IMG/VR virus record: IMGVR_UViG_3300038551_000082
Span: 1 to 28,797 of that record
Reading direction: 5' to 3' (one strand)
Source: a virus
Length of the DNA: 28,797 nucleotides
In this document: piece after piece, positions 349 through 23,407 of the stretch
Layout of the letters: each line of letters starts with the position of its first letter
How positions within the stretch are numbered: the stretch's first letter is position 1
Translations under genes and position numbers: made by a program
Notes under the pieces: generated by a model
The model's database searches: none
What the model was told of the DNA's origin: nothing
The model's input: the letters and a program-made list of their open reading frames with translations, nothing else

Positions 349-2709
349 TTAATCCTGCCACTCCTGCGGAGTCTCCGGCATCTGAATGACTTTCAGCCCG
401 AGCCAGTGGCGCCCTCGCGCGTTGTTGCGGACGTAGCGGAAGCCGTTTGCCGCAAGTTTTTCGTTGAGCTCGCGTTGTCGCCCGGGACGATCGTTGGCGC
501 GGGCGGCATAGTCCTTCCACGAAGTAAAAAGCCGCGTCGGTGTCTCCCAGCACTGCTCACCCAGCTCGCAACAGTCCTCCAGCCACTGGGCAAAAAGATC
601 CTCGCCACTGAAGTACTCCGCCGTCGCGCCCGCAACGATCGGTGGCGGATCGAGACCTTGCACCAGATATGCCTCGAGTCCATCGAGCATCCACTGCAGT
701 ATTCCTGGCCATTCGGCACTGAGCTTCTCGGCAAGATCTTTGTCGCGTTCTGCGGCCGGCACCGTGACGGTGAACGGAATCAGGTGCAGGCGGCGGCGCA
801 CCGATTCGTCTGAAGCCCGCAGCCTTGGCTTGTGGTTGCCGGCGATGAAGAGTTTGAATTTTGGCTGGTAGGAGAAGAAATCACGCCTCATGAACCTGGC
901 GCTGATTCGATCACCTCCGGTGAGAGCTTTGATTTTGCCATCGGCCCAGCTCTTGCCCTCCGAAGTCTCTTGCGAGATCACGATCCGGGCACCCATCAAA
1001 GCTGCCAATTCCGTTGGATGCTGCTCCGAGTGTGATTCCGCAAATGTCTGCATTGGCGCAACTGTTGCATAATCGCCACACACGGCCTTGACGGTATTGA
1101 GGAATACACTCTTGCCATTGGCTCCAGTACCGTAGCAGAAAAACAACGCATGCTCTCTTGTGCTACCAGATAGGCCGTACCCGACCGCGCGTTGCAGGAA
1201 CTTGGAGAGCTCGGCATTGCCAGACGTGATCTTGGCCAGAAATGCATCCCACAGCGGGCACCCTGCGGACGGCGCTGCTCCGGTGATCATCGTAGCGTAG
1301 GCATCTTTTCTGTGTGAGCCGATAGTGCCCGCACGCAGATCCACGATACCTCCGCCGGTATTCAGTGCCCAGTCATCGCGATCCCACTGCTCGAGCGTCG
1401 CGGCGGCTCTGCGATCGTAGCGCGACAGCTTTTCGACAGCGGCGATCGTTCGCGCGCTGCGCTTCGAAGGCGGCAGCCCACCACGCGCGCGCAGGAAATC
1501 GCGCACATCGGAAAGTGTATGGCCGGTATCATCGATACGCCAGCGCTTGCCATCCCATCGCCGCCAGTAGCCATGAGGCTCGACATAGCGCAGATCATCG
1601 TGCAGCCCTATGAACTCCATGGCCAGATCATCTTCGGATGGCTCGTCCGAGGGCTTGCCAGCATTGGCACGAGCAGATGTGGCAGATGTGGCAGACGGAG
1701 CAGACGGAGCAGACGTGGCATGATCCAATGCCTTGATCGCGGCCTTGAAATCTCCGCCATGATCCAAAATGGTGTACAAGGAGAAAGCATCATGGGCATG
1801 GCCATTGCAGAGTGGATCGCCATTATGAGATGAGTAGATAAGCCCGTTGTCGAGGAGGCGCACGCCAGGCATTCCGGTTTTACTGCCTGGCCATAGCCAG
1901 CGCTTGCCCCCTGCCTGTCCGGTACCTGCCTGTCCGGTAGGCAGGGGCAGGTCGGCGCCCGCGATGCCTGCCTGTCCCATGTCTGCCGACAGGCAGGCGG
2001 TAGGCAGGTAGCCATGCACGGCCAGGATGTCCTCCACCGAATGCGCCGCGTTGAAATCGCCTATGGGCCCAGAATCACGACCTGGTGATGCCACCTGCCT
2101 ATCCGGTAGGCAGGCGGGCTCCGCTAGAGGAATCTCGAGCGCCGAGCCATCGAGCATCGCACATTTGTAATCAGCCAATCTGGCCTCGGCACAGCGAGGC
2201 TCGTAAAACAGCCTGGCAGGATCGCTGCATGCCCGATCGTAGCACCTCTCTAATCCGGTGAGCTTTGCCGCATAGGCAACCGCGGCTTTCATCCGCGCCG
2301 GCTCCAGAGATTCTGTGGGTACGAATATGATTCTGTAGCGCGGGCTCTGTGGCGTGTGCGAGTATGTTGTATGGATGATACATGCTAGGCCGAGTTTTTC
2401 GAGCAGGCTTTTGGCGTCATCGAAGCTTGGCGGGATTTCCGACCTGTGTCCGTCTGTCCGGTAGGCGGGTCCCGGTTCCTCGATATCCAAAGCCAGAAAA
2501 GAAATAGACGCCACATTATTGTTTTTCCTTGGGCCGACCGCGATATCGCCCATGACCAGCCCTGAGCCATCCTTGGTGCCGACAATGGGCTTCCTGTACC
2601 TGTTATATATTTGTCGTAGTGAAAATGCTACAGTGGCTCGAATGGGCGATCTGCAATCGTCGACGATGCCGACATTGCGCCGAACTAAAGATATCGACTG
2701 CTCTTGCAT
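349..2709 (-). CDS. phage replicative primase/helicase (AEP-like primase plus SF3/D5 helicase)
   Basis: This 786-residue protein should prime and unwind DNA at the phage origin. The N-terminal part looks like a prim-pol domain: FLALDIE (about 71-77) carries an acidic catalytic pair, and DPARLFYEPRC follows near 163-173. The C-terminal part is a D5/P4-type superfamily 3 helicase with Walker A GTGANGKS (527-534), an acidic Walker B region in ARIVISQETSEG (574-585), a sensor strand LFIAGNHKPRL (620-630) and an arginine-rich SVRRRLHLIPF (636-646). The linker at about 198-275 consists largely of peptides encoded by palindromic repeats (LPDRQV, PTGQAG), followed by a Ser/Ala-rich stretch. The start lies only 5 bp from that of the divergent neighbour and has no obvious ribosome site, so a later start is possible. 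Family is confident; the N-terminal domain is less so. Confidence 0.92.
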   Translation of the reverse strand: MQEQSISLVRRNVGIVDDCRSPIRATVAFSLRQIYNRYRKPIVGTKDGSGLVMGDIAVGPRKNNNVASISFLALDIEEPGPAYRTDGHRSEIPPSFDDAKSLLEKLGLACIIHTTYSHTPQSPRYRIIFVPTESLEPARMKAAVAYAAKLTGLERCYDRACSDPARLFYEPRCAEARLADYKCAMLDGSALEIPLAEPACLPDRQVASPGRDSGPIGDFNAAHSVEDILAVHGYLPTACLSADMGQAGIAGADLPLPTGQAGTGQAGGKRWLWPGSKTGMPGVRLLDNGLIYSSHNGDPLCNGHAHDAFSLYTILDHGGDFKAAIKALDHATSAPSAPSATSATSARANAGKPSDEPSEDDLAMEFIGLHDDLRYVEPHGYWRRWDGKRWRIDDTGHTLSDVRDFLRARGGLPPSKRSARTIAAVEKLSRYDRRAAATLEQWDRDDWALNTGGGIVDLRAGTIGSHRKDAYATMITGAAPSAGCPLWDAFLAKITSGNAELSKFLQRAVGYGLSGSTREHALFFCYGTGANGKSVFLNTVKAVCGDYATVAPMQTFAESHSEQHPTELAALMGARIVISQETSEGKSWADGKIKALTGGDRISARFMRRDFFSYQPKFKLFIAGNHKPRLRASDESVRRRLHLIPFTVTVPAAERDKDLAEKLSAEWPGILQWMLDGLEAYLVQGLDPPPIVAGATAEYFSGEDLFAQWLEDCCELGEQCWETPTRLFTSWKDYAARANDRPGRQRELNEKLAANGFRYVRNNARGRHWLGLKVIQMPETPQEWQD
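1673..1717. repeat. five tandem 9-bp units in the primase linker
   Basis: GCAGATGTG, GCAGATGTG, GCAGACGGA, GCAGACGGA and GCAGACGTG follow each other directly. In the primase frame they encode the Ser/Ala/Thr-rich linker between the palindrome-rich region and the helicase. The unit is a multiple of 3, so changes in copy number would keep the frame. Confidence 0.8.
1910..1951. repeat. nested palindromic element (type A inside type A)
   Basis: Type A is 21 bp: arm CCTGCCT, loop GTCCGGT, arm AGGCAGG. Here a perfect copy (1925-1945) sits after base 15 of a second copy. Removing it joins 1924 to 1946 and restores a perfect type A. The total is 42 bp, which adds 14 codons to the primase (PLPTGQAGTGQAG) without a frameshift. 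Confidence 0.93.
1967..2008. repeat. nested palindromic element (type B inside type A)
   Basis: The outer type A is split after base 11 (1977). The inner 21 bp (1978-1998) is a type B-like copy, ATGTCTGCCGACAGGCAGG plus one flanking base on each side. Removing it restores a perfect type A. It lies 15 bp from the preceding nested copy, in the primase linker (CLSADMGQAG), and is again exactly 42 bp and in frame. Confidence 0.88.
2094..2114. repeat. palindromic element, type A variant
   Basis: Arms CCTGCCT and AGGCAGG flank the loop ATCCGGT, one base different from the common loop. In the primase it is read in another frame than the nested copies (CLPDRQV), which avoids the single stop codon that this variant carries on this strand. 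Confidence 0.9.
2450..2470. repeat. decayed palindromic element (type A)
   Basis: GTCTGTCCGGTAGGCGGG keeps the loop and most of the right arm, but the left arm is altered. It encodes PAYRTDG just after the LALDIE motif of the primase domain. It is probably an old copy that has drifted, but the match is partial. Confidence 0.45.
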
Positions 2710-2714
2710 AAACG

Positions 2715-3218
2715 ATGCCTAAGAAAGAAATCGAGTGTTACGGCTCCAATGCCGCTGGAGTCGGTGAGGCGTTCGCACGCTTGATGATATCGCCAAGCTT
2801 CATGGCCCTGCGAGGAATTTCGTGCAGCGCCAATACCGAGCTGCAGAAAAACATCGACATGCCGGCATTGCTGGCGGAGATTGCACGCGAGATCACGGTT
2901 CTCGCGACCGATAAACGCAGGGCAAACGAGTACCTCGCTGCACAGGCCTTGGTATTGGAGGCGGTATCAGCCGGCGTGCTGGAAAGAGCAATGCACCTGG
3001 CAGAGCGCGGCGAGCACGCCAATGCGCAAAAGTATCTCACGATCTCGATGCGCGCCAACGATCGGGCGAGACATGCATTGCTTGCCGTACATGGCCGGGC
3101 GCCTCGCGCGTATCATGGAGCGCCTCCAGAGCAAGCGCAACTGGATCTCGGCGAGCCAGTTGCCGCTCGCAAGCGGCCGTACCTGACCTGCCTATCCGGT
3201 AGGCAGGTCAAATCCTAA
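2715..3218 (+). CDS. hypothetical phage protein (167 aa)
   Basis: I do not recognise it with confidence. Residues 50-125 are predicted mainly alpha-helical and Ala/Arg-rich (EIAREITVLATDKRRANEYL), resembling the short helical proteins with no assigned role that many phages carry near replication or packaging genes. It is one of three plus-strand genes here. Its ATG is 5 bp from the divergent primase start and shows no ribosome site; Met24 at 2784 is an alternative start. Its stop overlaps that of the convergent regulator gene (3215-3218). The last residues (CLSGRQVKS) are encoded by a palindromic element that reaches almost to the stop, so the C-terminus has been rewritten by the repeat. Confidence 0.7.
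   Translation: MPKKEIECYGSNAAGVGEAFARLMISPSFMALRGISCSANTELQKNIDMPALLAEIAREITVLATDKRRANEYLAAQALVLEAVSAGVLERAMHLAERGEHANAQKYLTISMRANDRARHALLAVHGRAPRAYHGAPPEQAQLDLGEPVAARKRPYLTCLSGRQVKS
3187..3207. repeat. palindromic element, type A variant, at a gene end
   Basis: Arms CCTGCCT/AGGCAGG with loop ATCCGGT, the same variant as at 2094. It forms the C-terminal tail of the plus-strand gene, 8 bp before its stop codon, and lies just beyond the stop of the convergent regulator gene. Confidence 0.9.
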
Positions 3219-3577
3219 AACAGTTTCCGCGGCAATCTGTGGATGCCTTGCAGCGCCGGGTTTAATCTAGAAATCTCGATTCCGGTAAGGCGAGCGATCG
3301 CGACCGCCTTGCCGATCGGCACGTAGCCATCCCGATACCATCTGGATGCGATCTGCCTGGTAGTAGGGATTCCTGCCTTCACGAGCTCGTTAGCCAGAGA
3401 GGAGAGCGAGCCACCAGCGATCGCGATAGCCTCATCCAAGGCCGTGCGCACAGCCTCCTTCTGGAGGTATTCCTTCGACGAGCCCGCACTGTCTGCCGAC
3501 AGGCAGACGTCCTTGCGTACCTGCCTACCGGCCAGGCGGGTCGCGCCACCGAACAGCCCTACTTGTTTTTCGTCCAT
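3215..3577 (-). CDS. YdaS/Cro-like helix-turn-helix regulator
   Basis: A 120-residue DNA-binding protein whose residues 42-108 match the YdaS/Cro pattern: AIAIAGGSLSSLANELVKAG, a recognition helix near TTRQIASRWYRDG, then VPIGKAVAIARLTGIEISRLNP. YdaS-type proteins act as Cro-like repressors or toxin-antitoxin components of lambdoid prophages, so a role in the lysogeny or early-gene switch is likely. GAGGT lies about 7 bases before the ATG. The region before the fold, residues 13-32, is built from two palindromic elements (LAGRQV, CLSADSAG), so the DNA-binding domain itself is not interrupted. The nearby dyad at 3831-3851 is a possible operator, which is inference. Confidence 0.75.
   Translation of the reverse strand: MDEKQVGLFGGATRLAGRQVRKDVCLSADSAGSSKEYLQKEAVRTALDEAIAIAGGSLSSLANELVKAGIPTTRQIASRWYRDGYVPIGKAVAIARLTGIEISRLNPALQGIHRLPRKLF
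3491..3508. repeat. palindromic element, type B variant
   Basis: GTCTGCC and GGCAGAC form a perfect 7-bp stem around GACA. The outer bases differ from standard type B. It encodes CLSADS in the N-terminal part of the YdaS-like regulator. Confidence 0.7.
3520..3540. repeat. palindromic element, diverged type A
   Basis: CCTGCCTACCGGCCAGGCGGG is type A in reverse orientation with two or three changes. On the coding strand it gives RLAGRQV near residue 14 of the YdaS-like regulator, 11 bp from the type B copy. Confidence 0.75.
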
Positions 3578-5092: not shown

Positions 5093-6658
5093 TCACAGCA
5101 AAAACAGCGCGGCAAAGCCGCCAGAGTTGAATAACCCGGACCCAAGCACGATTATGATCCGGTCGATATCGGAAGTGGTTGTAATAAACCCCTTCGAGTG
5201 ATGCACGTATGATGTTCCGGCCGTATCAGTCGCAAATAGCCCATCGATCATCCATGCCTTTGTACTCCCGTTGGTGATCTTAGCGAGATTGATCGCCCCG
5301 TTGCATGGGCTGCTCTGGACGATTGAGGACAGTACAAGAACATCGCCCGTGTTGGAATCATCGCCATACCAGGTGCCACCATCAGACATTCTGCCGTACG
5401 TGCTTTCATATCCGCTTTCTATGTATCCTCCGGAGTGCCCAAGACGCAGCTTGGCCTCGGTCGCTCCGGGGCGCGTCAACCCATAGGCCGCCAGCCTGAG
5501 AAGCGTAGCGGTTGCTGGTATGCCGGTGATCTCCAATTGGTTGCTGCCAGTCAGAGCGACCGTACCAAGGAGCAACGAGCCAAGACTGGTGCGCCCGGAC
5601 AGCAACGCCAGCTCGGTTGCCGTGACCGCCGAGACCGCTACCTTTCCGCCAGACGAAGACTCCAGCGCCCTCGATGCCGTGAGATTCGATGATGTGATCG
5701 TGGTCGCGCCGCCGGTGATCGTTGCCTGCTTGGAATCGATCTGCGTCTGGATTGGCGAGGTTACTCCATCGACGTACCCAAGCTCGATTGCCGTTGTGCT
5801 GCTCACGACGATCTTACCCGACGTATCGGATTTCAGCGCCCGGGCCGTGGTGAGATCAGCGTAGGCCACGGTCGTTGCTGCGCCGGTGATCGTTGCGGCC
5901 TTGCCATTGATCTGCGTCTGGATCGCGCTGGATACTCCAGATACGTAGCCCAGCTCTGTTGCCGTTGTGGCGCTGGCCGCCAGATCGCCGGAGCCATCCG
6001 ATACCACGGCGCGGCTGGCCGTGAGATTGATCGCCGGCTCCTTGCCGTCGATCTGCGTCTGGATCGCACTGGTGACGCCTGATACGTAGCCCAGCTCCGT
6101 TGCCGTTGTGGCGCTCGCGGCAAGCGCACCGGAGACATCGCTGGCAACTGCCCTCGAAGCCGTGAGTGAGATCGTGGCTTGCTTGGAATCGATTTGCGTC
6201 TGCAGTGCGCTGGTGACGCCATCCAGATGCCTGATCTCTGCGATCTGGATAGCCGCCGGATGATAGGAGATGCACCTCCAAGTGCCGGCGCCCTCGTCAC
6301 GCATGATGGCCACGTCGCCGGCCGCTGTCGTGGTGTTGGCGCTGCCAGGGAGCAAAAAAGCCGCGCCATGCGTGAGCTGCAAGGCGCCCGAAAACACCAG
6401 CACCACGGTCCGCCCGGTCCACGATGCTGCAATCCCGGCAATGGTAGTCGTTCCGGTTACCGCAAATGAGTTCCCGGCGGCCGGGATCGTTATCGATGAC
6501 GCGGATGCAATATTCGCGCCCGCAGAAGCATCCTGCTTGATGATGGCTTGGATAGCCTGGAGGTACCCGGTAAGGCTGGTCCCGATATAGTCGGCGAGGA
6601 TCGGGTAGTTGTTGCCCGGAGTCGTCGATATCTCGGTTATATCATTCGGGATTGGCAT
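5093..6658 (-). CDS. tail fibre / receptor-binding protein with four internal repeats
   Basis: This 521-residue protein has the composition of a trimeric fibre: Ala/Ser/Thr/Gly-rich with regular beta repeats. Residues 143-357 contain four units of about 48 to 58 residues, each with a form of ELGYVSGVTSAIQTQIDGK followed by LTASRAVVSDGSG. The N-terminal 140 residues would attach to the virion. The last 160 residues (WYGDDSNTGDVL and following) have no repeats and could be the receptor-binding head. It probably recognises the host surface. The start at 6658 is a clear ATG just downstream of the ejection-type gene. Assignment is by architecture, not by a named family. Confidence 0.8.
   Translation of the reverse strand: MPIPNDITEISTTPGNNYPILADYIGTSLTGYLQAIQAIIKQDASAGANIASASSITIPAAGNSFAVTGTTTIAGIAASWTGRTVVLVFSGALQLTHGAAFLLPGSANTTTAAGDVAIMRDEGAGTWRCISYHPAAIQIAEIRHLDGVTSALQTQIDSKQATISLTASRAVASDVSGALAASATTATELGYVSGVTSAIQTQIDGKEPAINLTASRAVVSDGSGDLAASATTATELGYVSGVSSAIQTQINGKAATITGAATTVAYADLTTARALKSDTSGKIVVSSTTAIELGYVDGVTSPIQTQIDSKQATITGGATTITSSNLTASRALESSSGGKVAVSAVTATELALLSGRTSLGSLLLGTVALTGSNQLEITGIPATATLLRLAAYGLTRPGATEAKLRLGHSGGYIESGYESTYGRMSDGGTWYGDDSNTGDVLVLSSIVQSSPCNGAINLAKITNGSTKAWMIDGLFATDTAGTSYVHHSKGFITTTSDIDRIIIVLGSGLFNSGGFAALFLL
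5588..6232. repeat. tandem repeats inside the tail-fibre gene
   Basis: Four diverged units of roughly 145-170 bp share blocks such as GATCTGCGTCTGGATCGC and encode the fibre shaft. The two central units are most alike, so recombination could change shaft length. Confidence 0.75.
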
Positions 6659-6670
6659 TTTTACATCCCA

Positions 6671-8575
6671 TCAGTCGTTTCGTGTCTGCGAGTACCCGAT
6701 CCCAGCCGCGGCGATGCGCCTGGCGATCGCCTGCTGAATCGTGTCGGCAGACATTTTATTGGCCTTTGATAGCAAGGATTTTGCAAGCTGCGGATTTACG
6801 AAGGCATCTCCGATGATGTCGACCACATCCTCCGATGCCCCGCGAACCAAGCTCGCCGGTATCATGCGGGTCAGGATATCCGCGGCCGCCGGCATGTCTC
6901 GCAGGCTGCCACCGGCCATGGCATTGCCGATCAGAGCAGCAATGCTGAGATTGCGATACGTCGCGGAATTCTTGGATGCCGCGCCCGCGATCATCTGGCC
7001 TCGCCGGAATTCCGCGCGCACATCATCGAGCGCCTTGCGCTGCGCATCGCTGAGCTTTGCCAGCTTCGGGCCGGATTCGAGTCTCCGCATTACGCCCTCG
7101 AAGATTCCTGGCATGAGCATGGGCTCTGGAATCGCGCCGATTGCGGTCTGTGCCCTGGAAACGGATTGGCGCATCGTGTCGTCGAAGATCTGCCGTCGCT
7201 CGGCGGCCTGAGATTTGCTAGCGAATGGCTCCATCCAATTCTTGCGATATCCAGGCATGCCGGTATCGATCACGTCATCGACGCCACGGATGACTTTGCG
7301 CATGAGCTTCTGCGCATTCGTCGACAGCCTCGTCTGCCTGCCCTCGATCATTCTGGTCTCGAGGATGTTGTTCAGCGTTTTCCGCATGCCGTTGTAGAGG
7401 TACCGAGGATCGGTCGACAGATCCGGGCCCTGAGGCACCCCATCTGGCCCATCCTTTGGACGCAGCCGATCGAGCTCGTGCCGTGCCGTGCTCAGTACTT
7501 TGCGAGATTCCTCGTCGCTGTATCGCGGCCTCGATGAGAGGTTCTGGAGCATATCATCGATGGCCGTCGAGTCGACGGGCTTCGCGGATCGCTCCATCTT
7601 CTGGATTACAGGGCGCAGGGATTTGTTGCGCTCCGCGATAATCGCCGCGCGCTCCTGCGGAAATTGCGCCTGCATGTGGCTCATGGCGGCTCTATTCGAT
7701 GCCTGCTCGGCACCGACGAACTTACCGGTTTGCCGGTGCATCTCGCGCACGGCATTGTGCGATGCCAGCAGACCCGGATCGAGCGAGAGCACGGCAGTTG
7801 GTTGCCTGTAGCCGCTCACCCTGGGCTCTGGAGCCATGGCCAGGGCTTTTGCCGCCGCTGCTGGATCATCTGCCAGTTCGCGCAGTGCCATCCCAGCGAT
7901 GTTCTTGCGCCCTGCCTCTGTTGCGAACTTGCCAAGCCCGGCTACCGCGCCGGCGCCACCAGTTGCCAGCGATGCCAGGATAGCAGCGGTTTGTTGCCCC
8001 GCCTGCCCAGCACCCAATTGCTCTGCACCCTCGGCGCCCATCGCGCCGGCAATGGCAGAGCCAGCCTGAGCCGCTGGCCTTGCTCCGAGCGTCGTGAGCA
8101 CATTTTTCAGCAGCGGGTTGTTGCCGATCCTGCCCAGAATGGTAAGAGCCGGAGCACCTGTGAGTGCAGCTCCCCCAGCTCCTGCCACGCTTTCGATCAT
8201 CTCTCCAGCCCGGTCCTCGGCCTTTGGAAGCAGGCCAGCGACCAGCCAGTCGATATTTTTGTCAGCCGTGTTTTGCGTGCCAAAAATCAACTGGGTAATC
8301 GGATCGGTAAACAGCGCGGGAAGGGCGAGCGCGCCCTTTGCCGCGCCGGTAACAGCACTACCCAGGTAAGGCAGCAATGCCTCTGCAGCGCCGGTTACTG
8401 CTTTCTGGTACTTCTTCAACAGCGAGGGGTCTACATTGGCGCCTGCCTGCCTGCCTGCCTGCCCGGGGCGGGTTGTTTCCCCTTGCCCTTGCCTTTGCGT
8501 TTTTGCCTCGACGGCTTGTTCTTGCAGCCCATTCGGTACCTCCTCGAGGTAATCGGCTCTAGAAAATTTAGCCAT
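6671..8575 (-). CDS. large virion protein, probable internal/ejection protein
   Basis: A 634-residue protein with a hydrophobic Ala/Gly-rich first half (about 55-225, with stretches like GSAIAGAMGAEGAEQLGAGQ) and a charged helical second half. This mix is typical of podovirus internal virion or DNA-transfer proteins, which insert into the host envelope during ejection. I cannot assign a named family. A diverged palindromic element encodes PGQAGRQAG at 37-45. The gene is followed after 12 bp by the tail fibre and preceded by a 153-bp gap with tRNA-like remnants. The ribosome site is weak (GGGTGG, rather distant), but the ATG is supported by the gap upstream. Confidence 0.68.
   Translation of the reverse strand: MAKFSRADYLEEVPNGLQEQAVEAKTQRQGQGETTRPGQAGRQAGANVDPSLLKKYQKAVTGAAEALLPYLGSAVTGAAKGALALPALFTDPITQLIFGTQNTADKNIDWLVAGLLPKAEDRAGEMIESVAGAGGAALTGAPALTILGRIGNNPLLKNVLTTLGARPAAQAGSAIAGAMGAEGAEQLGAGQAGQQTAAILASLATGGAGAVAGLGKFATEAGRKNIAGMALRELADDPAAAAKALAMAPEPRVSGYRQPTAVLSLDPGLLASHNAVREMHRQTGKFVGAEQASNRAAMSHMQAQFPQERAAIIAERNKSLRPVIQKMERSAKPVDSTAIDDMLQNLSSRPRYSDEESRKVLSTARHELDRLRPKDGPDGVPQGPDLSTDPRYLYNGMRKTLNNILETRMIEGRQTRLSTNAQKLMRKVIRGVDDVIDTGMPGYRKNWMEPFASKSQAAERRQIFDDTMRQSVSRAQTAIGAIPEPMLMPGIFEGVMRRLESGPKLAKLSDAQRKALDDVRAEFRRGQMIAGAASKNSATYRNLSIAALIGNAMAGGSLRDMPAAADILTRMIPASLVRGASEDVVDIIGDAFVNPQLAKSLLSKANKMSADTIQQAIARRIAAAGIGYSQTRND
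8452..8473. repeat. diverged palindromic element / CCTG tandem
   Basis: Four or five CCTG/CCTGC units followed by CCCGGGGCGGG resemble a type A copy whose left arm has expanded and whose right arm has drifted. It lies in the N-terminal linker of the ejection-type protein and is a weak family member. Confidence 0.45.
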
Positions 8576-8582
8576 GGTTATT

Positions 8583-8720
8583 ATGCCACCCGCCTCGGAC
8601 TCGAACCGTGGATCATGACATCTTCACTGACCGCAAATAGCCTGTCTGCCGACAGGCAGGCCGGAGTCGAACCGGCGGGATCTCATATGTTCCTGACCAC
8701 TGCACCTGCTGTGGGTCAAG
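8583..8720 (-). pseudogene. tRNA-like remnants (two T-arm motifs) in an intergenic gap
   Basis: On the minus strand this gap has two T-arm sequences, GGTTCGACTCC (about 8661-8671) and GGTTCGAGTCC (about 8594-8604). The first forms a full T stem, GCCGG/CCGGC, around TTCGACT. A D-arm-like GGTGCAGTGGTCA precedes it, but the D-loop to T-loop distance is about 9 bases too short for a tRNA, and I could not fold a complete acceptor stem for either. A type B palindrome sits directly after the first T arm. The best reading is two decayed tRNA genes, one disrupted or trimmed; a functional non-standard tRNA is less likely. Confidence 0.4.
8641..8660. repeat. palindromic element, type B, intergenic
   Basis: Perfect CCTGTCTGCCGACAGGCAGG. 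The perfect stem is CCTGTC/GACAGG around TGCC. It is one of the few copies outside coding sequence, placed where the acceptor stem of the tRNA-like remnant would continue. Confidence 0.92.
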
Positions 8721-9877: not shown

Positions 9878-10457
9878 CGAAAACTCCAAACAAATCAGAC
9901 ACATCAGTTACGAACATGCCAATACCTCCGGCCGATTTCACGGTCTCGAGGAATGCATATTGCTCGGCCTCTCTCAGCCCGGATGGCTTCTTCCAGCCAG
10001 GCCTCTTGCACTCGATGGCGAACATTTTCCCGGCCGTGGTAAGGCCCCAGAAATCCGTTAGCCGCATCTCCCGGCCACGCACGAACCGATAGAAATACAC
10101 CGGCGCATTAGAGGTATTGTACGCCATGCCGGAGTTTTGCCGCACCGCGAACAGCACGCCGCGAGCTCTGTACAAGTAGCTCGCAACAGCTGCCACAACA
10201 GGTGCTTCAGCGTGCTTCTTGCCGCCGCGTTGAGTCACGGTTTTGCTGCTCGGTTTGGCCTGCCTGCCTGCCTGTCCGGTAGGCAGGTCCGGTAGGCAGG
10301 CTGGTGTTGGCTTGCCTAACCATTCAGGTGCCGGCTTGCCCGCCAGCGTGCACATAGCAGTCAGCACAGATGTATTGGCTTCCATCGTTTGCTTGATGGA
10401 TTTCTGCTTCAATCCTTTGCCCTGTCTGCCGACAGGCAGGCTGCGCCCTGGCATCAT
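9870..10457 (-). CDS. VRR-NUC domain nuclease with palindromic-element insertions
   Basis: This 195-residue protein carries a VRR-NUC (PD-(D/E)XK) domain in residues 83-190: E84 in AEAPVVAAVASYL, an Asp in LTDFWG (D135), the ECK signature (E149, K151) and a helix glutamine (Q166). Phage VRR-NUC proteins act like Holliday-junction or structure-specific nucleases, probably in recombination or in resolving DNA before packaging. The fold starts only after residue 80. The first 80 residues are a low-complexity leader containing two palindromic insertions, LPVGRQG (7-13) and LPDLPTGQAGRQA (55-67). Start and upstream stop overlap as ATGA with the glucosaminidase gene, so the two are co-translated. 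Confidence 0.85.
   Translation of the reverse strand: MMPGRSLPVGRQGKGLKQKSIKQTMEANTSVLTAMCTLAGKPAPEWLGKPTPACLPDLPTGQAGRQAKPSSKTVTQRGGKKHAEAPVVAAVASYLYRARGVLFAVRQNSGMAYNTSNAPVYFYRFVRGREMRLTDFWGLTTAGKMFAIECKRPGWKKPSGLREAEQYAFLETVKSAGGIGMFVTDVSDLFGVFDA
10259..10300. repeat. nested palindromic element (type A inside type A)
   Basis: A perfect type A copy (10267-10287) interrupts another after base 8. Joining 10266 to 10288 restores a perfect 21-bp copy. Total 42 bp, in frame in the VRR-NUC gene leader. There is no duplicated target sequence at the junction. Confidence 0.94.
10421..10440. repeat. palindromic element, type B
   Basis: Perfect CCTGTCTGCCGACAGGCAGG, encoding LPVGRQ just after the start of the VRR-NUC protein. 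Confidence 0.92.
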
Positions 10458-11383
10458 GTTATCGACCTGTATATCCTGAGCACCTTATCGGCATACTCTG
10501 GATCTGTGGCATACCCGGCATTGTGGATGTTGCGGATATACCGCTCCGGATCGCCAGATGATGCAAGCGCGCCCTCGTATCTCTTGGAGCCTGTGATCAA
10601 TCTGGCGTAATCGGCAAACGATTCCTCGGGCGATTCGTAGGCTCGGAATTTCGCTCGTTCCTTGGCTGGAGCTCCGTCGCGGTACTCGGTGGTCGAAACC
10701 TCGGATGTATCTCCGCTCCACCCGCGCCCAGCCTTGATGTTGAAAAGGTTATTCCGCCCTGCCATGTGGCGGCCCCAGCCCGTTTCCAGCGCAGCTTGCG
10801 CCACGAGCATCTTGGGGTCGATGCCTATCTCGGCGCCTGCCGATTCGGCCATTGGCAGCAGGCTGCTCAGAAAGTCCTCGTGAGATACCGGCTTGCCCGG
10901 CTCGGCTGCTTTTGGTGCGGCCGGCACTGGAAGAAGCCCAGCAGCAGGTCCGGTAGTCAGGCCAGCAGGCTCCGCCTCGGAGATACCAGAGCCTGCCTGG
11001 CCGATACCTGCCTGTCCGGTAGGCAGGGGCATGCCACCAAAGACAAGCAATGACAATAGATCATCATAGGATAGCCCGCCAGTCGTCATTGTATCTAGCG
11101 TGCCACCTGCCTGTCCGGTAGGCAGGGGGAACGAGTCATCATCACGCTGCGATAGTAGATCTGGAATGGATGCGCTGGGTGATGTAACGGCAGGGATCAG
11201 CCCGGTCGTGCGCTGCACCGGAGCGTATGGCAGTGGCTGCCTGCCTGTCCGGCCTGCCTGTCCGGTAGGCAGGTAGGCAGGTGATGGGCGGCCTAATAAA
11301 CCCTGTCTGCCGACAGGCAGGCGCCCGATCAGCCCGCGCGGCAAAGCATTAGTAATCAATCCACCACTCGTAGTGGTTGCCAT
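10454..11383 (-). CDS. FlgJ-like glucosaminidase (peptidoglycan hydrolase)
   Basis: A 309-residue cell-wall enzyme. The C-terminal part (about 160-309) is a glucosaminidase/FlgJ-type domain: MLVAQAALETGWG holds the catalytic Glu, followed by NLFNIKAGRGWSGD, a strand with TTEYRDG, KFRAYESPEESFADYARLI, and the ending NAGYATDPEYADKVLRIY, all characteristic. It should cut glycan strands, either as part of the lysis set or as a virion hydrolase. The first 150 residues are a Pro/Gly linker containing four palindromic sites (five copies, LPVGRQG and LPTGQAG peptides). The ATG at 11383 is preferred over 11473 because GGAAG lies upstream and the 5' extension overlaps the M15 peptidase gene heavily. 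It overlaps that gene by 35 bp. Confidence 0.88.
   Translation of the reverse strand: MATTTSGGLITNALPRGLIGRLPVGRQGLLGRPSPAYLPTGQAGRTGRQPLPYAPVQRTTGLIPAVTSPSASIPDLLSQRDDDSFPLPTGQAGGTLDTMTTGGLSYDDLLSLLVFGGMPLPTGQAGIGQAGSGISEAEPAGLTTGPAAGLLPVPAAPKAAEPGKPVSHEDFLSSLLPMAESAGAEIGIDPKMLVAQAALETGWGRHMAGRNNLFNIKAGRGWSGDTSEVSTTEYRDGAPAKERAKFRAYESPEESFADYARLITGSKRYEGALASSGDPERYIRNIHNAGYATDPEYADKVLRIYRSIT
11007..11027. repeat. palindromic element, type A, with a half copy beside it
   Basis: Perfect type A. CCTGCCTGGCCG (10992-11003), 3 bp before it, looks like a drifted left half of another copy. Together they encode LPTGQAGIGQAG in the glucosaminidase linker. Confidence 0.9.
11106..11126. repeat. palindromic element, type A
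   Basis: Perfect type A (arms CCTGCCT/AGGCAGG, loop GTCCGGT), encoding LPTGQAG in the glucosaminidase linker. Confidence 0.94.
11240..11281. repeat. nested palindromic element (type A inside type A, near the centre)
   Basis: A perfect inner copy (11253-11273) lies after base 13 of the outer copy; joining 11252 to 11274 restores a perfect type A. Total 42 bp, encoding YLPTGQAGRTGRQ in the glucosaminidase linker. This is the clearest case, because both copies are free of mismatches. Confidence 0.95.
11302..11321. repeat. palindromic element, type B
   Basis: Perfect CCTGTCTGCCGACAGGCAGG, 20 bp downstream of the nested site, encoding LPVGRQG near the N-terminus of the glucosaminidase. Confidence 0.92.
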
Positions 11384-11681
11384 CGTTGAATCTTCCGCCC
11401 CAGATACCTCCTTGCGCTTCCCAGAAGCAGCCAAGCTGGGCGTGATCTTCTGTGGCGACCAGCAATTTACCATCCTTGAATAGATTGAGATCTATCGCAA
11501 GCCGCTGTTTGTGCTTGCTGTTTTTCGCCCCATAGCCTTTTGACTCGCCCATGGCTCCAAATATTCTTTGATCGCGGTAGGCATCGCCAATAGTTACCTC
11601 GTACCCGAGCTCGAATGCCCTGTTGATCAGTGCTGGTAGTGCTCGAGCGAACTCTACTTGTTTATCTCTCAGTGTGCTCAT
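11349..11681 (-). CDS. M15-type L-alanyl-D-glutamate peptidase endolysin
   Basis: A compact 110-residue VanY/M15-type zinc peptidase, the fold used by many phage endolysins to cut peptidoglycan peptides. The metal site is clear: H57 and D64 in SKHKQRLAIDLNLF and H103 in GNHYEW, with DAYRDQRIFGAMG as the preceding conserved region. There is no signal peptide, so export would need a holin or it is carried in the virion. Its ATG overlaps the upstream gene's TGA (ATGA), and its end overlaps the glucosaminidase start, so two wall enzymes of different specificity are made together. Family assignment is firm. Confidence 0.9.
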   Translation of the reverse strand: MSTLRDKQVEFARALPALINRAFELGYEVTIGDAYRDQRIFGAMGESKGYGAKNSKHKQRLAIDLNLFKDGKLLVATEDHAQLGCFWEAQGGIWGGRFNDGNHYEWWIDY

Positions 11682-15456: not shown

Positions 15457-15716
15457 CAATGTCGATTACCTCCCTGCCTACCGGACAGGCAGGCGCAGAC
15501 ATGGCAGATAGCCTTCCCGGGCTCTGCTAATCTGTCGCAAAACTCACACAGCCGTTTCTTGCCAGCTGCCGCCCGGCGTACCATCGCCGCAGCCTTGTAC
15601 ACCGCCCGTGCCGATATCATGCCGACCGGGTAAGGCATTCGTTCCCAGATCAGCCATTCGCAGACCTCGCTGGTGGCGTCTGGGATCGCGGCTCTGATAA
15701 CCTTTTGTATATCCAT
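15456..15716 (-). CDS. small protein with double CxxC and a repeat-encoded tail
   Basis: An 86-residue protein: a helical N-terminal half (DATSEVCEWLIWERMPYPVG, then SARAVYKAAAMVRRA) and a zinc-ribbon-like CEFC/CHVC pair at 57-60 and 71-74. Immediately after the last Cys the palindromic element supplies CLSGRQG, so the present C-terminus differs from the ancestral one. ATG 15716 is assumed, and no clear ribosome site is seen; a TTG at 15722 is an alternative. Function unknown. It shares the operon with other Cys-rich mini-proteins. Confidence 0.6.
   Translation of the reverse strand: MDIQKVIRAAIPDATSEVCEWLIWERMPYPVGMISARAVYKAAAMVRRAAAGKKRLCEFCDRLAEPGKAICHVCACLSGRQGGNRH
15473..15493. repeat. 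palindromic element, type A, reverse orientation
   Basis: CCTGCCT, loop ACCGGAC, AGGCAGG: the exact reverse complement of type A. It encodes the C-terminal tail of one zinc-ribbon protein and abuts the GGGAGGT ribosome site of the next. Confidence 0.93.
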
Positions 15717-16333: not shown

Positions 16334-16370
16334 TCGCCTTTTTAGCCGATGGCCTGGCTTGCGGGCTTCG

Positions 16371-16454
16371 CATTTCCGGCTTATCAGGCCGGCGTGAGCT
16401 ATCACTGTCGCTGGGCGCCGGATTATCACCGGCATTTCCGGCTTATCAGGCCGG
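16371..16454. repeat. REP-like hairpin cluster with a 22-bp direct repeat
   Basis: CATTTCCGGCTTATCAGG followed by CCGG occurs exactly at 16371-16392 and 16433-16454. Each contains a hairpin, CCGGC/GCCGG on the minus strand around CTGATAA. Between them CCGGATTATCACCGG (about 16418-16432) is a third related hairpin. The TTATCAGGC core recalls enterobacterial REP sequences, but that similarity is from memory only. The cluster fills the 16255-16478 gap between two genes and could act as a terminator, processing site or target for insertions. Confidence 0.75.
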
Positions 16455-17005: not shown

Positions 17006-18988
17006 TCAGCCCAGAGGCCCGGGCGGAACGCCTGTCTGCCGTACAGGCAGGGCTTGCGGCTGCGGAATGACCCCTGCTTTGATCATCTCGAGCTCCAGCT
17101 TTTTGGCTTCGAGTGCATACTTTCGGTCCAGATCTTCCTTCTTCAGTGCGAGCTCTGCCTTCTCCAGGCTCGCATCTGCCTCCATCGAGGCCACCTTTGC
17201 CTGCATCTGCATGTACGATTGCTTGCCTTGTTCCAGCGCCTGCTTGAGCTGCATCGCTTGCATCTGAGCACTGGCCACGGCTGCCCTTGCCTCTGGCGGC
17301 ACATTCTGTGCGGACTCCAATGCCCGCACCGGAGCCGGGAGCATCACCTTCAGACGCTTGGCGATCTCGTCTGCCTCCGGCCAATCCTGCGACTTGGCCA
17401 ACAAATCGCCGATGAGCTGGGCCGACTGTGGGAATACACGAATCATCTCCATCATTTGATCAGCAGCTTCTTGGCGCTTGGATGTGTAGCTCGGCCCCAT
17501 ACTGGTCGTGAGATCGTACTTCCTGGCCGTGAGGTCGTAGACGCGGACCGCGCCGGAAACTTCTGTTGGCGAATTGACCTGGACAGCTCTGGTGTTGCCA
17601 TCGTAGCCACGCACCCGGAGCACGCGCGGCGAGTTGTACACGGCAGGGATGATATCCAGCAGGATCTTGCCGGTATGGTTTATGGCGCGAGCCAGATTAT
17701 CCAGGAAGTGGAATGTGCTTATATCGCCCTCTCTCTGCCTTGCCATGATCGCGCGCCCACTGGTCTCGTTCGACCGCGCCCCGAGCGACGCATCGTACAT
17801 GCCGACGATAGCCTTGATATCATCCGATGATGTCAGAGCTTCCTGGATGGCGGCGACCGGAGGCCCGATTTGTGGCTCGCGGCTTGGGCGTATAGGCCCA
17901 TCGTATTCGAGTGTTGCGTGCGAGATACTGTTTGCCGTAGCCCACTTATCGGCGTCGCTGGCGAATGCTCCGCGCGGCCCGACATACGGAACGCGCGACA
18001 TCAGCCCGGCGATCTCCGTCGTGGTCGACCGCCAGAAATTGAGCATGCGCTGCGAATCTTTTGCATCGCGGATCAATGACTTGAAGTAGCGCTTGCCTTC
18101 GACGATCACCTCGTCTCCGTAGATCGGGACGATCGGAATGTAGCGCCCCTTCCACCTCGTGGTATCGAGCACTTCCGAGCCCGAAAGGATGTGCTGCACC
18201 ACCTTATGCGATACGGTGTCGCGCACTCCAACGACGCTCAAGCCCGCAGCAACGAACAACTCCTGCCCTGCCAAGAATCGATCTTCATCGAGGATCGTGC
18301 CATCAGAAAGCCGCAGAAGCTTTGTTTTCGCTTCCTCGCGGCGCCAGAACTCCGCGACGTAGACCTCATCGTCTCCGACATCGGAATTCTGCCATCTTAC
18401 ATCCCAGCTCGACGCGGCAGCATCCGGCCACCGTTTCTCGAACTCGGCTTTGCTCATGCCGTCGACCACGAAGCAATAGTTCCAGTTTGCGGAATCCGGA
18501 GCCATGCTCGTGTGGTCAGGGAGCACGGCAAACTGGTTGGGTATTCGCTCGATGCCGATATCCATATCCCAAGAATCTTCTCTGGCGTAATCGATGCCGA
18601 TTCGCCAGTAGCCGATTCCGCCGCTCACTGCTTGCTCCATACCGGTATCGTAGGCCACCGAGCTTTGCGAGTTGTTTTCGATGTGGCGGATCAAATCTTC
18701 GATGATCTGCGCCGTTTCCGGGTCGCCACCGGAATCCACGGGGTGCACCGAGATCGCGGGCTTCGACTGCCGCGCATCATTCACGACCTGGCGGATGAAC
18801 GCCTGCAGCCTGTTGATCACCAGCGCAGGGCGACCTTCGCGCCGGCGCCGCTGAAGCGTTGCTTCGTCCCACTGCTCGCCAAGGCGGGCGAACCGGATAT
18901 CATCGATGGCATTCGTGTAGTTCTCTACATACTCATCCTCTGATTCCTGGTAAAGTTTCCGCGCTTCTTCGATGATATCTTTACTCAT
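17006..18988 (-). CDS. portal protein, P22 gp1-like
   Basis: A 660-residue portal, the dodecameric ring through which DNA enters and leaves the capsid. The order is typical of P22-type portals: a helical N-terminus (IIEEARKLYQESEDEYVENY), the RRREGRPALVINRLQAFIRQ segment, a beta-rich wing, the RYIPIVPIYGDE strand, SGRAIMARQREGD before the tunnel helix, and a long Gln/Lys C-terminal coil (about 580-645). The last residues, QALPVRQTGVPPGPLG, come from a palindromic element, so the disordered tail tolerates it. The ATG at 18988 lies 1 bp after the terminase stop and is preferred over 19009. Confidence 0.93.
   Translation of the reverse strand: MSKDIIEEARKLYQESEDEYVENYTNAIDDIRFARLGEQWDEATLQRRRREGRPALVINRLQAFIRQVVNDARQSKPAISVHPVDSGGDPETAQIIEDLIRHIENNSQSSVAYDTGMEQAVSGGIGYWRIGIDYAREDSWDMDIGIERIPNQFAVLPDHTSMAPDSANWNYCFVVDGMSKAEFEKRWPDAAASSWDVRWQNSDVGDDEVYVAEFWRREEAKTKLLRLSDGTILDEDRFLAGQELFVAAGLSVVGVRDTVSHKVVQHILSGSEVLDTTRWKGRYIPIVPIYGDEVIVEGKRYFKSLIRDAKDSQRMLNFWRSTTTEIAGLMSRVPYVGPRGAFASDADKWATANSISHATLEYDGPIRPSREPQIGPPVAAIQEALTSSDDIKAIVGMYDASLGARSNETSGRAIMARQREGDISTFHFLDNLARAINHTGKILLDIIPAVYNSPRVLRVRGYDGNTRAVQVNSPTEVSGAVRVYDLTARKYDLTTSMGPSYTSKRQEAADQMMEMIRVFPQSAQLIGDLLAKSQDWPEADEIAKRLKVMLPAPVRALESAQNVPPEARAAVASAQMQAMQLKQALEQGKQSYMQMQAKVASMEADASLEKAELALKKEDLDRKYALEAKKLELEMIKAGVIPQPQALPVRQTGVPPGPLG
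17031..17051. repeat. palindromic element, type B with one extra base
   Basis: CCTGTCTGCC plus GTACAGGCAGG: type B with an inserted T, giving 21 bp, a multiple of 3. It encodes LPVRQTG in the C-terminal tail of the portal. Confidence 0.88.
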
Positions 18989-18989
18989 T

Positions 18990-20240
18990 TCATGCCATCC
19001 AATCGGCAACTGGCCGATGTCCGCGCTTCGTGTGTTCGTGAGGTGGGCGCAGCCCGAGGATCATATATCGCAACGCATCCGAGCCATGTGTTGCAATGCC
19101 TGCCTGCGGCCTATCCGTGTACTCTTGCATGGCAGAATTATACGCGCGCACATAACTGGATAGGCGCTCCAGCCCGACCTTGCACTTTACAGGGTCGACG
19201 AGCAGCGCTGGGAAAGTCACGCGCACGGCATGGATGCCATCATCCAAGCTTTGCGCTGGGATTGGCGAAAACCGAATCCCCAGCTGGTGAGCCGTTGATA
19301 GCCTGGACTTGTCTGCGCCCCATTCCCGCACGTTGATGTCGTGCGGTGCGAAGTGATCGCCGTACGTATATCCTTTGTTTTTCAGGATGTTGACGTAGTG
19401 CGGAAGGCCTTGACCCTCGCCCTCGTAGTAATCGATCAGCCTGATCTCGCCGCCTCTGGAAATCTGCGCGAACCAGATCGCCGTCGATGACAGCATGCCG
19501 ATATCCCATGCTGTGTGTACTGGCAATACCGGATCTGGCACGAGCGACAATACCCTGCCCTCGCGGTACATGGTATCGATTTCATCTCCGTAGATCGCGC
19601 CTTCCGTCACATGCCGAACCTCGCCCTCCCAGATATTGCGGTACCCGATCGGATCTCGCTTCTGCGCGGCTTGGCGCTCAGCCTCTAGAGCCTCGTTCCA
19701 CCATGGGTTATCTTGCCAGCGCAGCCTGATCACGATCGAGTCTGGCGGCGGCGGATTGGCGACAAAGCGTTGATAGATCTCATCGTGGCGGCTAACCGGA
19801 TTGAACGATGCCCAGATCTCTGCGCCATCTTTGCGCAGCGTTGGCGTGAGGATATCCCATGATGCCTTGGAGATCGTCTGTGCTTCCTCGACCCATGCAA
19901 TATCCGCGGCTTCGAGCGATTTTATCGATGTTGGGTTGTGCTTGAGCCCCGCGAACAGAAATACGGAGCCATTGCGCCCGCTGATCGTAGCGCGCTGTAT
20001 ATCATAGTGCCCGGCAAGGCCGAGCTGCTCGATCTGCGCGGCAAGCAAACTGTGCACGGACTCCCGGATCGAGTTCTGGAATTCACGACAGCACAGTATC
20101 TTGAGCCGCTTCGAGGCGGCCATGATCAGCAGGGCCCGGGCAATAGACCAGCTCTTGGCGCTCCCACGGCCACCGTACAATACCTTATAGCGCGCCGTCT
20201 GGAATAGTGGCAGCGCTTTCGCTGGGAGCAGAATCTCCAT
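18990..20240 (-). CDS. terminase large subunit (packaging ATPase/nuclease)
   Basis: A 416-residue motor protein that packages phage DNA and cuts it. Walker A GGRGSAKS (23-30), Walker B IAWVEEA (114-120) and the coupling motif SFNP (145-148) make up the ATPase. The nuclease half shows D246 in HTAWDIG, HDINVREWG near 300-308 and a final SDALRY (387-392). The layout fits the Terminase_3/PBSX-type group. Its stop is 1 bp before the portal start, and its first 56 bp overlap the end of the smaller upstream gene. The ribosome site is weak, which fits coupling to that gene. Confidence 0.95.
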   Translation of the reverse strand: MEILLPAKALPLFQTARYKVLYGGRGSAKSWSIARALLIMAASKRLKILCCREFQNSIRESVHSLLAAQIEQLGLAGHYDIQRATISGRNGSVFLFAGLKHNPTSIKSLEAADIAWVEEAQTISKASWDILTPTLRKDGAEIWASFNPVSRHDEIYQRFVANPPPPDSIVIRLRWQDNPWWNEALEAERQAAQKRDPIGYRNIWEGEVRHVTEGAIYGDEIDTMYREGRVLSLVPDPVLPVHTAWDIGMLSSTAIWFAQISRGGEIRLIDYYEGEGQGLPHYVNILKNKGYTYGDHFAPHDINVREWGADKSRLSTAHQLGIRFSPIPAQSLDDGIHAVRVTFPALLVDPVKCKVGLERLSSYVRAYNSAMQEYTDRPQAGIATHGSDALRYMILGLRPPHEHTKRGHRPVADWMA

Positions 20241-20461: not shown

Positions 20462-20501
20462 CCTGCCTGTCCTATCTGCCGACAGGCAGGCGGCAGACAG
20501 G
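20462..20501. repeat. nested palindromic element (type B inside type B), intergenic
   Basis: The outer copy is type B in reverse (CCTGCCTGT + CGGCAGACAGG). The inner copy, CCTATCTGCCGACAGGCAGG, differs from type B at one base and sits after base 9. Removing it restores a perfect outer copy. It fills the gap between two genes and supplies part of the ribosome site for the small terminase-like gene. Confidence 0.92.
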
Positions 20502-22210: not shown

Positions 22211-23407
22211 TTACCCAGCAGTGATGTCGTACCCGCCGGCACCGTACAGGACTGACAGGTCCGGGCGCATGACCAGATTCGACCGCACCGAGGAATTGGC
22301 CTCGTTGATCGCAGAGCTGAGGAGCTCGCCCCACAGAGCTGCGCGCCCGTCATCGCCGATGAAGGGAGCCGATACGAGCAGTGCCGAGTACAGATACAGA
22401 TCAGGGTATGCCTCGGATATCGGATTCGTGCCGTCCGCAAGCATATTCAAGCGCTTGCGATAGATCAACGAATACGCATAGACGCCGTTGGCCTTGCGTT
22501 CGAAGTTGAGCCGCGAGGTAATGCAATAGTAGCGCGGCCGTCCAGCCGCTGATGTCGCCGCCATCTTCGATAGTTCTTCGGGCGATATTTCCCGAAGCTC
22601 GATGCCCTGATCATCCACCAGCGATACCGTGGATAGGTATCTCAATGGCAGAGTTACATAGTTAACGTCGGAGCTCGGGACTATCTGCGTAATCTCGAGC
22701 ATCAACGATAGTTTTATCAGCCGATTAAGGCGCGCCTCGCCGAACCGAATGAAATCAGGAATTCTGGCGTCGAGGTCGCTCCGGTGAAGCCATGCCTTGA
22801 CGGCGCTCACGATTTCTGCGTATGTCATATCGCCCTCGGGCGGCTCCTCGTATTCGCTCGCCTCGCCAAAAAATGTATCTGCCGATTGTGTTACCGATAG
22901 CGTCCCGGTAATTTCGACCGCGGAATCAGAGCCTGAGAATGTATCGCCAGCCTGCGTGACGGCAAGCACGCCGGAGATGGCGACAGCACCGCTCGACGCC
23001 AGTGTATCGCCAGCCTGCGTGACGGCGATCGTGCCGCTGACGAGTACCGTCCCCGCACTCGCCAGTGCATCCGGCTCCTGGGTGGCGGCCAGCGCTCCAA
23101 GCACAGCCGTGCCGGATGTCCCGGAAAATGTGTCGTCCGCCTGCGTAACCGCGATGGTGCCGGACACCAGCACCGAACCGGCCGACGCCAGCGTGTCTGC
23201 GGCTTGGGTAGCGGCCAGAGCTCCAGCGATGGCAACCGCGCCTGCAGCTGCCAGGGCATCACCAGCCTGAACCGCGGCAAGCACGCCGCTGATGCCACCA
23301 CCACCCTCGCCGATGATCTGCAGCCAGCCATCCGGATAAACACGCGATACCGATGATGCGCCAGAGCTCTGCGTCCATCCGGCTGGCGTAATCCTCGAGA
23401 CGGCCAT
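22211..23407 (-). CDS. head-tail adaptor (gp4/SU10-like) fused to seven 21-residue repeats
   Basis: A 398-residue protein in two parts. Residues 39-184 are seven repeats of about 21 residues (unit GTIAVTQAGDTLASSGAV). Residues 194-398 start with MTYAEIVSAVKAWLHRSDLD and continue with IPDFIRFGEARLNRLIK and TLPLRYLSTVSLVDDQG, the pattern of gp4/SU10-type adaptors, which are normally independent proteins of about 170-210 residues. An ATG at 22828 with GAGGG 5 bases upstream could start a free 204-residue adaptor from within the same frame. The repeats resemble those of phage spike or decoration proteins. Either a true fusion or a dual-start gene. Confidence 0.85.
   Translation of the reverse strand: MAVSRITPAGWTQSSGASSVSRVYPDGWLQIIGEGGGGISGVLAAVQAGDALAAAGAVAIAGALAATQAADTLASAGSVLVSGTIAVTQADDTFSGTSGTAVLGALAATQEPDALASAGTVLVSGTIAVTQAGDTLASSGAVAISGVLAVTQAGDTFSGSDSAVEITGTLSVTQSADTFFGEASEYEEPPEGDMTYAEIVSAVKAWLHRSDLDARIPDFIRFGEARLNRLIKLSLMLEITQIVPSSDVNYVTLPLRYLSTVSLVDDQGIELREISPEELSKMAATSAAGRPRYYCITSRLNFERKANGVYAYSLIYRKRLNMLADGTNPISEAYPDLYLYSALLVSAPFIGDDGRAALWGELLSSAINEANSSVRSNLVMRPDLSVLYGAGGYDITAG
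22826..22839 (-). promoter_or_regulatory. possible internal ribosome site and start for a free adaptor
   Basis: GAGGG followed after CGAT by ATG (22826-22828) lies exactly at the junction between the repeat region and the adaptor domain. It would allow a second, shorter product from the same frame. This is inference from spacing and motif. Confidence 0.4.
22856..23293. repeat. seven tandem units of about 63 bp in the adaptor gene
   Basis: The units share blocks such as GTATCGCCAGCCTGCGTGAC and encode 21-residue beta repeats with a conserved VTQAGDT core. The unit length is a multiple of 3, so copy number could vary without a frameshift. Confidence 0.85.

Follow-up and report, generated by a model that had tools for sequence, protein, structure and literature searches.

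Exactly inserting palindromes of 20-21 bp, nested within one another, in a phage genome and in bacteria

Introduction

Rickettsia palindromic elements (RPEs) are in-frame palindromes within genes, much longer than the 20-21 bp elements considered here, while the cyanobacterial small dispersed repeats (SDR) of Elhai et al. 2008 are reportedly very small mobile bacterial repeats. REPs are thought to be mobilised in trans on single-stranded DNA, and some of their families lie inside other palindromes, as do GTAG-23 of T. roseum and the GTAG-15 dimers of A. variabilis (PMC3733652). Purified TnpA-REP enzymes cleave single-stranded REP DNA at CT or CA, and mutation of the guide shifted the cut to CC (PMC8266576). 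The short palindromic repeats of Volvox carteri organelles are tiny, often inserted into one another, and have been called selfish DNA (PMC2670323), and the GC clusters of yeast mitochondria (GC42) are small GC-rich hairpin elements that show presence/absence polymorphism and merge together (PMC4478555). Palindrome nesting is therefore already known, both from Volvox organelles and from REPs within palindromes. Insertions of REP-like palindromes have rarely been caught in the act.

The window analysed here, that is, the whole stretch of 28,797 bp (IMG/VR virus record IMGVR_UViG_3300038551_000082, positions 1 to 28,797), carries two related palindromes that are repeatedly found inside copies of themselves. 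In common with the REP/REPIN (RAYT/TnpA-REP) systems, these elements are short (20-40 bp in REPs), GC-rich, high-copy palindromes that are patchy between species; with 20-21 bp and up to 223 copies per genome, they fall within the REP definition of a 20-40 bp palindrome present in many copies. Unlike REPs, they carry no GTAG/CGTC tag and no flanking RAYT gene was found at the 24 Y1 loci checked; neither tetranucleotide occurs in the tables of element flanks, which show only a single preferred base (G^ or ^C). They further differ from REPs in that one near-identical core is common to many phyla and phages, and in their precise self-nesting at a near-constant loop position. The GC42 clusters differ in being 18-86 nt long and in having AG/ACT direct repeats at their flanks, described as target-site duplications (PMC4478555), and the Volvox repeats in residing in organelle genomes and having longer, more variable units, with no split-point or target rule given in the available part of the text (PMC2670323). 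RPEs are CGTC-tagged (PMC3733652), so that membership in that group was rejected despite the in-gene copies. A miniature element of a DDE transposon (MITE) was also rejected, since inverted repeats are present but insertion is exact and without target-site duplication; compared with IS200/IS605-derived elements, there is no duplication and the target preference extends over just 1-2 bases. A CRISPR array does not fit the irregular spacing and the two orientations seen in the window. The palindrome is apparently one of the smallest pieces of mobile DNA.

Results

Two palindrome types in the phage genome

The window contains 11 copies of type A (CCTGCCTGTCCGGTAGGCAGG, 21 bp) that carry at most 2 mismatches, of which six are exact; for type B (CCTGTCTGCCGACAGGCAGG, 20 bp), under the same limit, there are 6 copies, of which three are exact. 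As 100 dinucleotide shuffles of the window yielded 0 matches to either, both copy numbers are far beyond chance. The two types have the core CCTGCCT...AGGCAGG, and the ends of the element are set by the foot of the hairpin. When folded as single-stranded DNA, A and B are predicted to form stems of 8 bp, and the form found in a Bacteroidales genome described below (G003) a stem of 7 bp; these GC-rich hairpins have z-scores of -2 to -4 against shuffles. On balance, we favour the view that A and B belong to a single family of miniature mobile elements, palindromic and 20-21 bp long. A search against Rfam gave no match, and a tRNA search found none. The copies outside nests are as follows.

2094-2114, plus strand: single A, 1 mismatch
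3187-3207, plus strand: single A, 1 mismatch
3520-3540, minus strand: single A, 2 mismatches
11106-11126, plus strand: single A, perfect, within the ORF at 10454-11473 (glucosaminidase)
15473-15493, minus strand: single A, perfect
27675-27716, plus strand: two A copies head to tail, with 2 and 1 mismatches, within the N-terminal portion of the scaffold gene
3488-3507, plus strand: single B, 2 mismatches
8641-8660, plus strand: single B, perfect, intergenic (between ORFs)
10421-10440, plus strand: single B, perfect
11302-11321, plus strand: single B, perfect

The majority of the copies in the window lie within ORFs, on either strand, and the peptides that they add are poorly conserved. The length of A is a multiple of three, and it is translated as LPTGQAG, CLPDRQA and similar peptides. 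In phage genes, 21-bp copies persist as small in-frame peptide insertions; REP-like elements also enter phage genes in this manner. At 8442-8463 the window contains a microsatellite-like (CCTG)5CC run, possibly made of decayed palindromes.

Nested copies in the window

Six sites in the window consist of one copy split by another.

1910-1951, plus strand: A in A, outer 1910-1924 and 1946-1951, inner 1925-1945, split after base 15; the site lies within the primase ORF (349-2709)
1967-2008, plus strand: B-like 21-mer in A, outer 1967-1976 and 1998-2008, inner 1977-1997, split after base 10 (C^C), equivalently 11
10259-10300, plus strand: A in A, outer 10259-10266 and 10288-10300, inner 10267-10287, split after base 8 (G^T)
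10992-11033, plus strand: A in mutated A, inner 11007-11027 perfect, outer with 3 mismatches, split after base 15
11240-11281, plus strand: A in A, outer 11240-11252 and 11274-11281, inner 11253-11273, split after base 13 (CCGG^TAGG)
20462-20501, plus strand: B in reverse-complement B, outer 20462-20470 and 20491-20501, inner 20471-20490 (1 mismatch), split after base 9 (T^C)

The initial annotation had listed five of these sites, all of which are real, and had missed the sixth, degraded one at 10992-11033. At each of the five, removal of the inner copy does restore a perfect outer copy, with no duplicated base, as it had proposed. Its placement of every split in or at the edge of the hairpin loop needs a small correction, in that the split after base 15 falls one base pair into the 3' arm. 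Two more corrections concern inner copies: the B-like one at 1967-2008 has one extra A (CCATGTCTGCC...), and the one at 20471 has one mismatch. The nest at 10259-10300 can be read in the encoded protein, where the ORF gives CLPD[LPTGQAG]RQA. The arrangement at 11240-11281 recurs as an identical copy in two bacterial genomes (L062 and L064). Near position 100 of L064 (G002), the left half is present three times and the right halves are incomplete; this arrangement seems to be what is left of a nest after the loss of a direct right-half repeat.

Empty and filled sites in a bacterial genome

The Bacteroidales genome G003, of which a sample of 1.16 Mb was analysed, is especially informative in that the contexts of its insertions are themselves repeated and so provide natural empty sites. 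One such context occurs in three states: empty (AAGCCCCATTAGG^GGTGACCTATACATTGAATG), filled by a single element, or filled by a nested pair. We compared 66 single copies from this sample with paralogous empty sites, that is, sites within the same genome and not in other strains, allowing offsets from -8 to +12. A paralogous empty site was available for 39 of the 66, and the best fit was offset 0 alone, corresponding to an exact 20-bp insertion, in 26 of these; in four others offsets 0 and -8 tied, the latter being the shift of a local 8-bp repeat, and exact insertion was thus best or equal-best in 30/39. The best fits of the other nine were scattered (+4 three times, +11 twice and each remaining offset once), and no target-duplication class was found among the 39. 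At L244:18201, a single repeat among many is filled; these repeats are otherwise identical, and 13 exact empty sites correspond to the filled one. Comparison across the family of G003 at one locus yielded relatives that are ~80% identical and can be aligned in genes only. Overall, the elements add exactly their own length, with neither duplication nor loss at the target site, in agreement with what had been read from the nests of the phage, and we consider it very probable that they are mobile, exactly inserting elements.

Within this one genome, the same contexts are present empty, filled and nested, with junctions exact to the base, and each nest shows where in a known hairpin the element went in, so that both the target rule and the single-strand hypothesis can be tested directly.

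Target choice

In G003, all 30 nested copies are split 1 nt from the dyad (after base 9 or 11 of 20), against ~34% expected at these two positions from a sequence-only model of the flanks. A wider search, which could return only splits at 6-15, gave 57 nested cases at 56 loci from many phyla, of which 45 were split at 9 or 11 of 20 and the rest at 8-14. The split points, whose tabulation the initial annotation had proposed, are clustered at the loop. Loops of other hairpins are also enriched: five of the 66 G003 singles lie in loops of hairpins with a stem of at least 7, versus ~1% of random positions (~8-fold enrichment), and 7/43 viral and window A and B sites lie in loops with a stem of at least 5, versus 4.9% (P = 0.004), one of the seven (window 1978) being a nested site overlooked by the filter. 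An unrelated palindrome was found both empty (ACTCCGCCTTAAAAGGCGGAGT) and interrupted (ACTCCGCCTTAAAA[element]GGCGGAGT), and a nested pair lies precisely at the midpoint of a palindrome of 14 bp (CACGGAGACACAGA^TCTGTGTCTCCGTG). The elements thus land preferentially in hairpin loops, which accounts for their nesting in unrelated palindromes as well as in copies of themselves.

The junctions also follow a base preference: when elements are read as B or as the reverse complement of A, the base 3' of the junction is preferentially C, which corresponds to G^ when they are read as A. In G003, the upstream base is C in 56/66 junctions, mostly as C^C or C^T, with TC^CA as shared flank bases; A-type junctions have an upstream purine in 33/39 and a downstream T in 25/39 (mostly G^T), and B-type junctions a downstream C in 20/28. 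As the window splits after bases 8 and 13 are at the sole two G^T steps in A, which is its preferred junction, base preference alone could have placed them. A flank-only model for A puts ~50% of splits in the loop; given this and the ~34% for G003, the loop carries extra weight in G003 and less certainly for A, the copies not all being independent. The proposal that insertion targets the loop therefore stands in part: nests are almost confined to the loop and unrelated loops are enriched, but most single insertions (61/66 in G003) lie outside the loops of hairpins with a stem of at least 7 and follow the base preference, so that an extruded hairpin is a favoured and not a required target.

Distribution in bacteria and other phages

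The pattern in which a left half-copy precedes a full copy was found in at least 117 stretches of species-representative bacterial and archaeal genomes; the lineages among the matches listed include Bacteroidales, Candidate Phyla Radiation, WOR-3, Melioribacteraceae, Ignavibacteria, Omnitrophota, Chloroflexota and others. Counts of the element in 12 genomes searched range from 1 to 223, and the control with the pattern reversed gave 0 except for 1 match in one genome; the highest count, 223 versus 0, is that of G003. The distribution is patchy, as 8/80 genomes of one order match, two of them being rich, and the exact A 21-mer occurs in 13/380 genomes of one phylum and 9/395 of another. Exact A is also present in G788, a 3.86-Mb single-contig genome, so that it is not confined to fragmented short contigs and an assembly artefact is unlikely. 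One region of this genome (L356, 3777000-3790000) contains four exact copies of A ~3 kb apart, adjoining a run of ORFs of 826-868 aa; given this spacing beside the ORF series, these copies were probably multiplied together with the gene.

Both A and B are present in further viral contigs. A fully A-specific nested pattern had no match in viral_contigs, and a generic one had 5, of which at least 2 (L231 and L234) are clear nests. The nested 40-42-mers gave only weak partial matches to named plasmids and phages. In a literature search by literal sequence strings and by topic, with partial coverage, we found no description of this palindrome family.

Discussion

Origin of the nests

That nesting reflects insertion is well supported. 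Tandem slippage, which the initial annotation had named as the finding that would overturn it, could formally mimic a nest if each half, left and right, had been duplicated on its own (L-L-R-R), and a few half-duplicated sites do exist, L064 with its extra left half among them. The G003 sample, however, contains 30 full nests and only seven half-duplicated forms (4 left, 3 right), which argues against slippage. Moreover, the inner copy need not match the outer one in type or orientation, as at 1967-2008 and 20462-20501 in the window and in 6/30 G003 nests (the other 24 having both copies in the same orientation); triple nests also occur; and slippage cannot yield insertion into unrelated palindromes. 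We consider it extremely unlikely as the cause. Template switching or end joining is a more serious contender, albeit an unlikely one: a polymerase stall, or an SbcCD cut, at the extruded loop would lead to another hairpin being copied through microhomology, with return to the same base and no dedicated enzyme. The centring of splits on the loop, the short common flank bases TC^CA, which could serve as microhomology, and the co-orientation of 24/30 inner/outer pairs are all consistent with it, but the copied segment keeps the same two ends across unrelated flanks and phyla, the return is as a rule to exactly the original base, with nothing gained or lost, slippage products are rare, and the majority of single insertions are outside hairpins.

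Two further explanations concern the spread of the copies more than their nesting. Homologous recombination or gene conversion might have carried the palindrome within larger repeats, true insertions being few and old. Several filled sites of G003 do share larger repeats (GTTAGG^GGTGACC, TTCC^CATT), and since most targets in this genome are in repeated contexts, gene conversion may have multiplied some copies, so that the nests there are not all independent; as the main route it is nevertheless improbable, given the filled site at L244:18201 amid its exact empty counterparts, the insertions in unique contexts and in other palindrome families, and the unrelated phyla and phages that carry the element with unrelated flanks. 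Finally, the palindromes could have a function as hairpins (as terminators, mRNA stabilisers or packaging signals) and be kept in place by selection, without being mobile DNA, a notion to which their GC-richness and z-scores would lend themselves. We regard this as very improbable, since most window copies are in ORFs on either strand, with peptides of low conservation, and the bacterial genome has empty paralogous sites.

A possible mechanism

The elements are probably trans-mobilised miniature hairpins that move as single-stranded DNA. An enzyme provided in trans would cut one strand at the target base step as well as at both feet of the folded hairpin; the single-stranded hairpin, 20-21 nt long, would then be joined into exposed single-stranded DNA; the hairpin loop would be one such exposed target, and other single-stranded stretches, for example during replication, would take the rest. 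Strand-specific cutting and joining of a single-stranded hairpin fits the fixed ends, the exactness, the lack of duplication, the base step at the junction and the liking for loops. We lean, with reservations, towards this explanation as a whole, mobile hairpin and enzymatic route together. The foremost candidate for the enzyme would be a Y1/HUH transposase of the IS200-IS605/REP-associated (TnpA-REP) kind, a class that we put forward only tentatively. The steps at which TnpA-REP cuts (CT/CA, and CC in the mutant) resemble the C^C/C^T junctions of our element (PMC8266576). Genes of the Y1_Tnp type were found in 15/15 genomes with elements, but also in 17/21 without them, and are not discriminating; a palindrome of the family lies within ~0.5 kb in ~4/24 of the Y1 loci checked and flanks both sides in 0/24, so that no enzyme was tied to the elements among these loci and genomes. 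In G788, where replichores are visible in the GC skew, the orientation of the elements shows no clear bias relative to the direction of replication. It is doubtful, yet conceivable, that they represent a distinct class of mobile DNA, a 20-21 nt hairpin with ends set by structure alone, spreading through phyla and phages as a single-stranded insert into loops and exposed strands by means of an enzyme unlike known REP transposases.

The phage genome around the palindromes

No close relatives of the window phage were found in viral_contigs when empty sites were sought, nor any empty site for this phage or its nearest relatives, and joined-flank searches for the empty sites of two widespread viral A/B sites also found none. 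The closest named portal homologue, from Chlorobiaceae phage CV-1-33, has 44.5% identity and is thus too distant for DNA comparison. The window carries P22-like podovirus modules at 17006-19009, 18990-20240, 25676-26872 and 26873-27763: portal (PF16510), terminase (PF04466), major head protein and scaffold. The ORF at 349-2709 encodes a P4-type primase with several palindromes in its linker, and its C-terminal half is 48% identical to Acidithiobacillus phage AcaML1. Periodic repeats inside ORFs at 22943-23305 and 5716-6238, with periods of 63 bp and 141/171 bp, are likely to be protein repeats. At 16370-16454 there is a perfect 23-bp direct repeat pair (GCATTTCCGGCTTATCAGGCCGG) whose copies start 62 bp apart, each with an inverted repeat within it.
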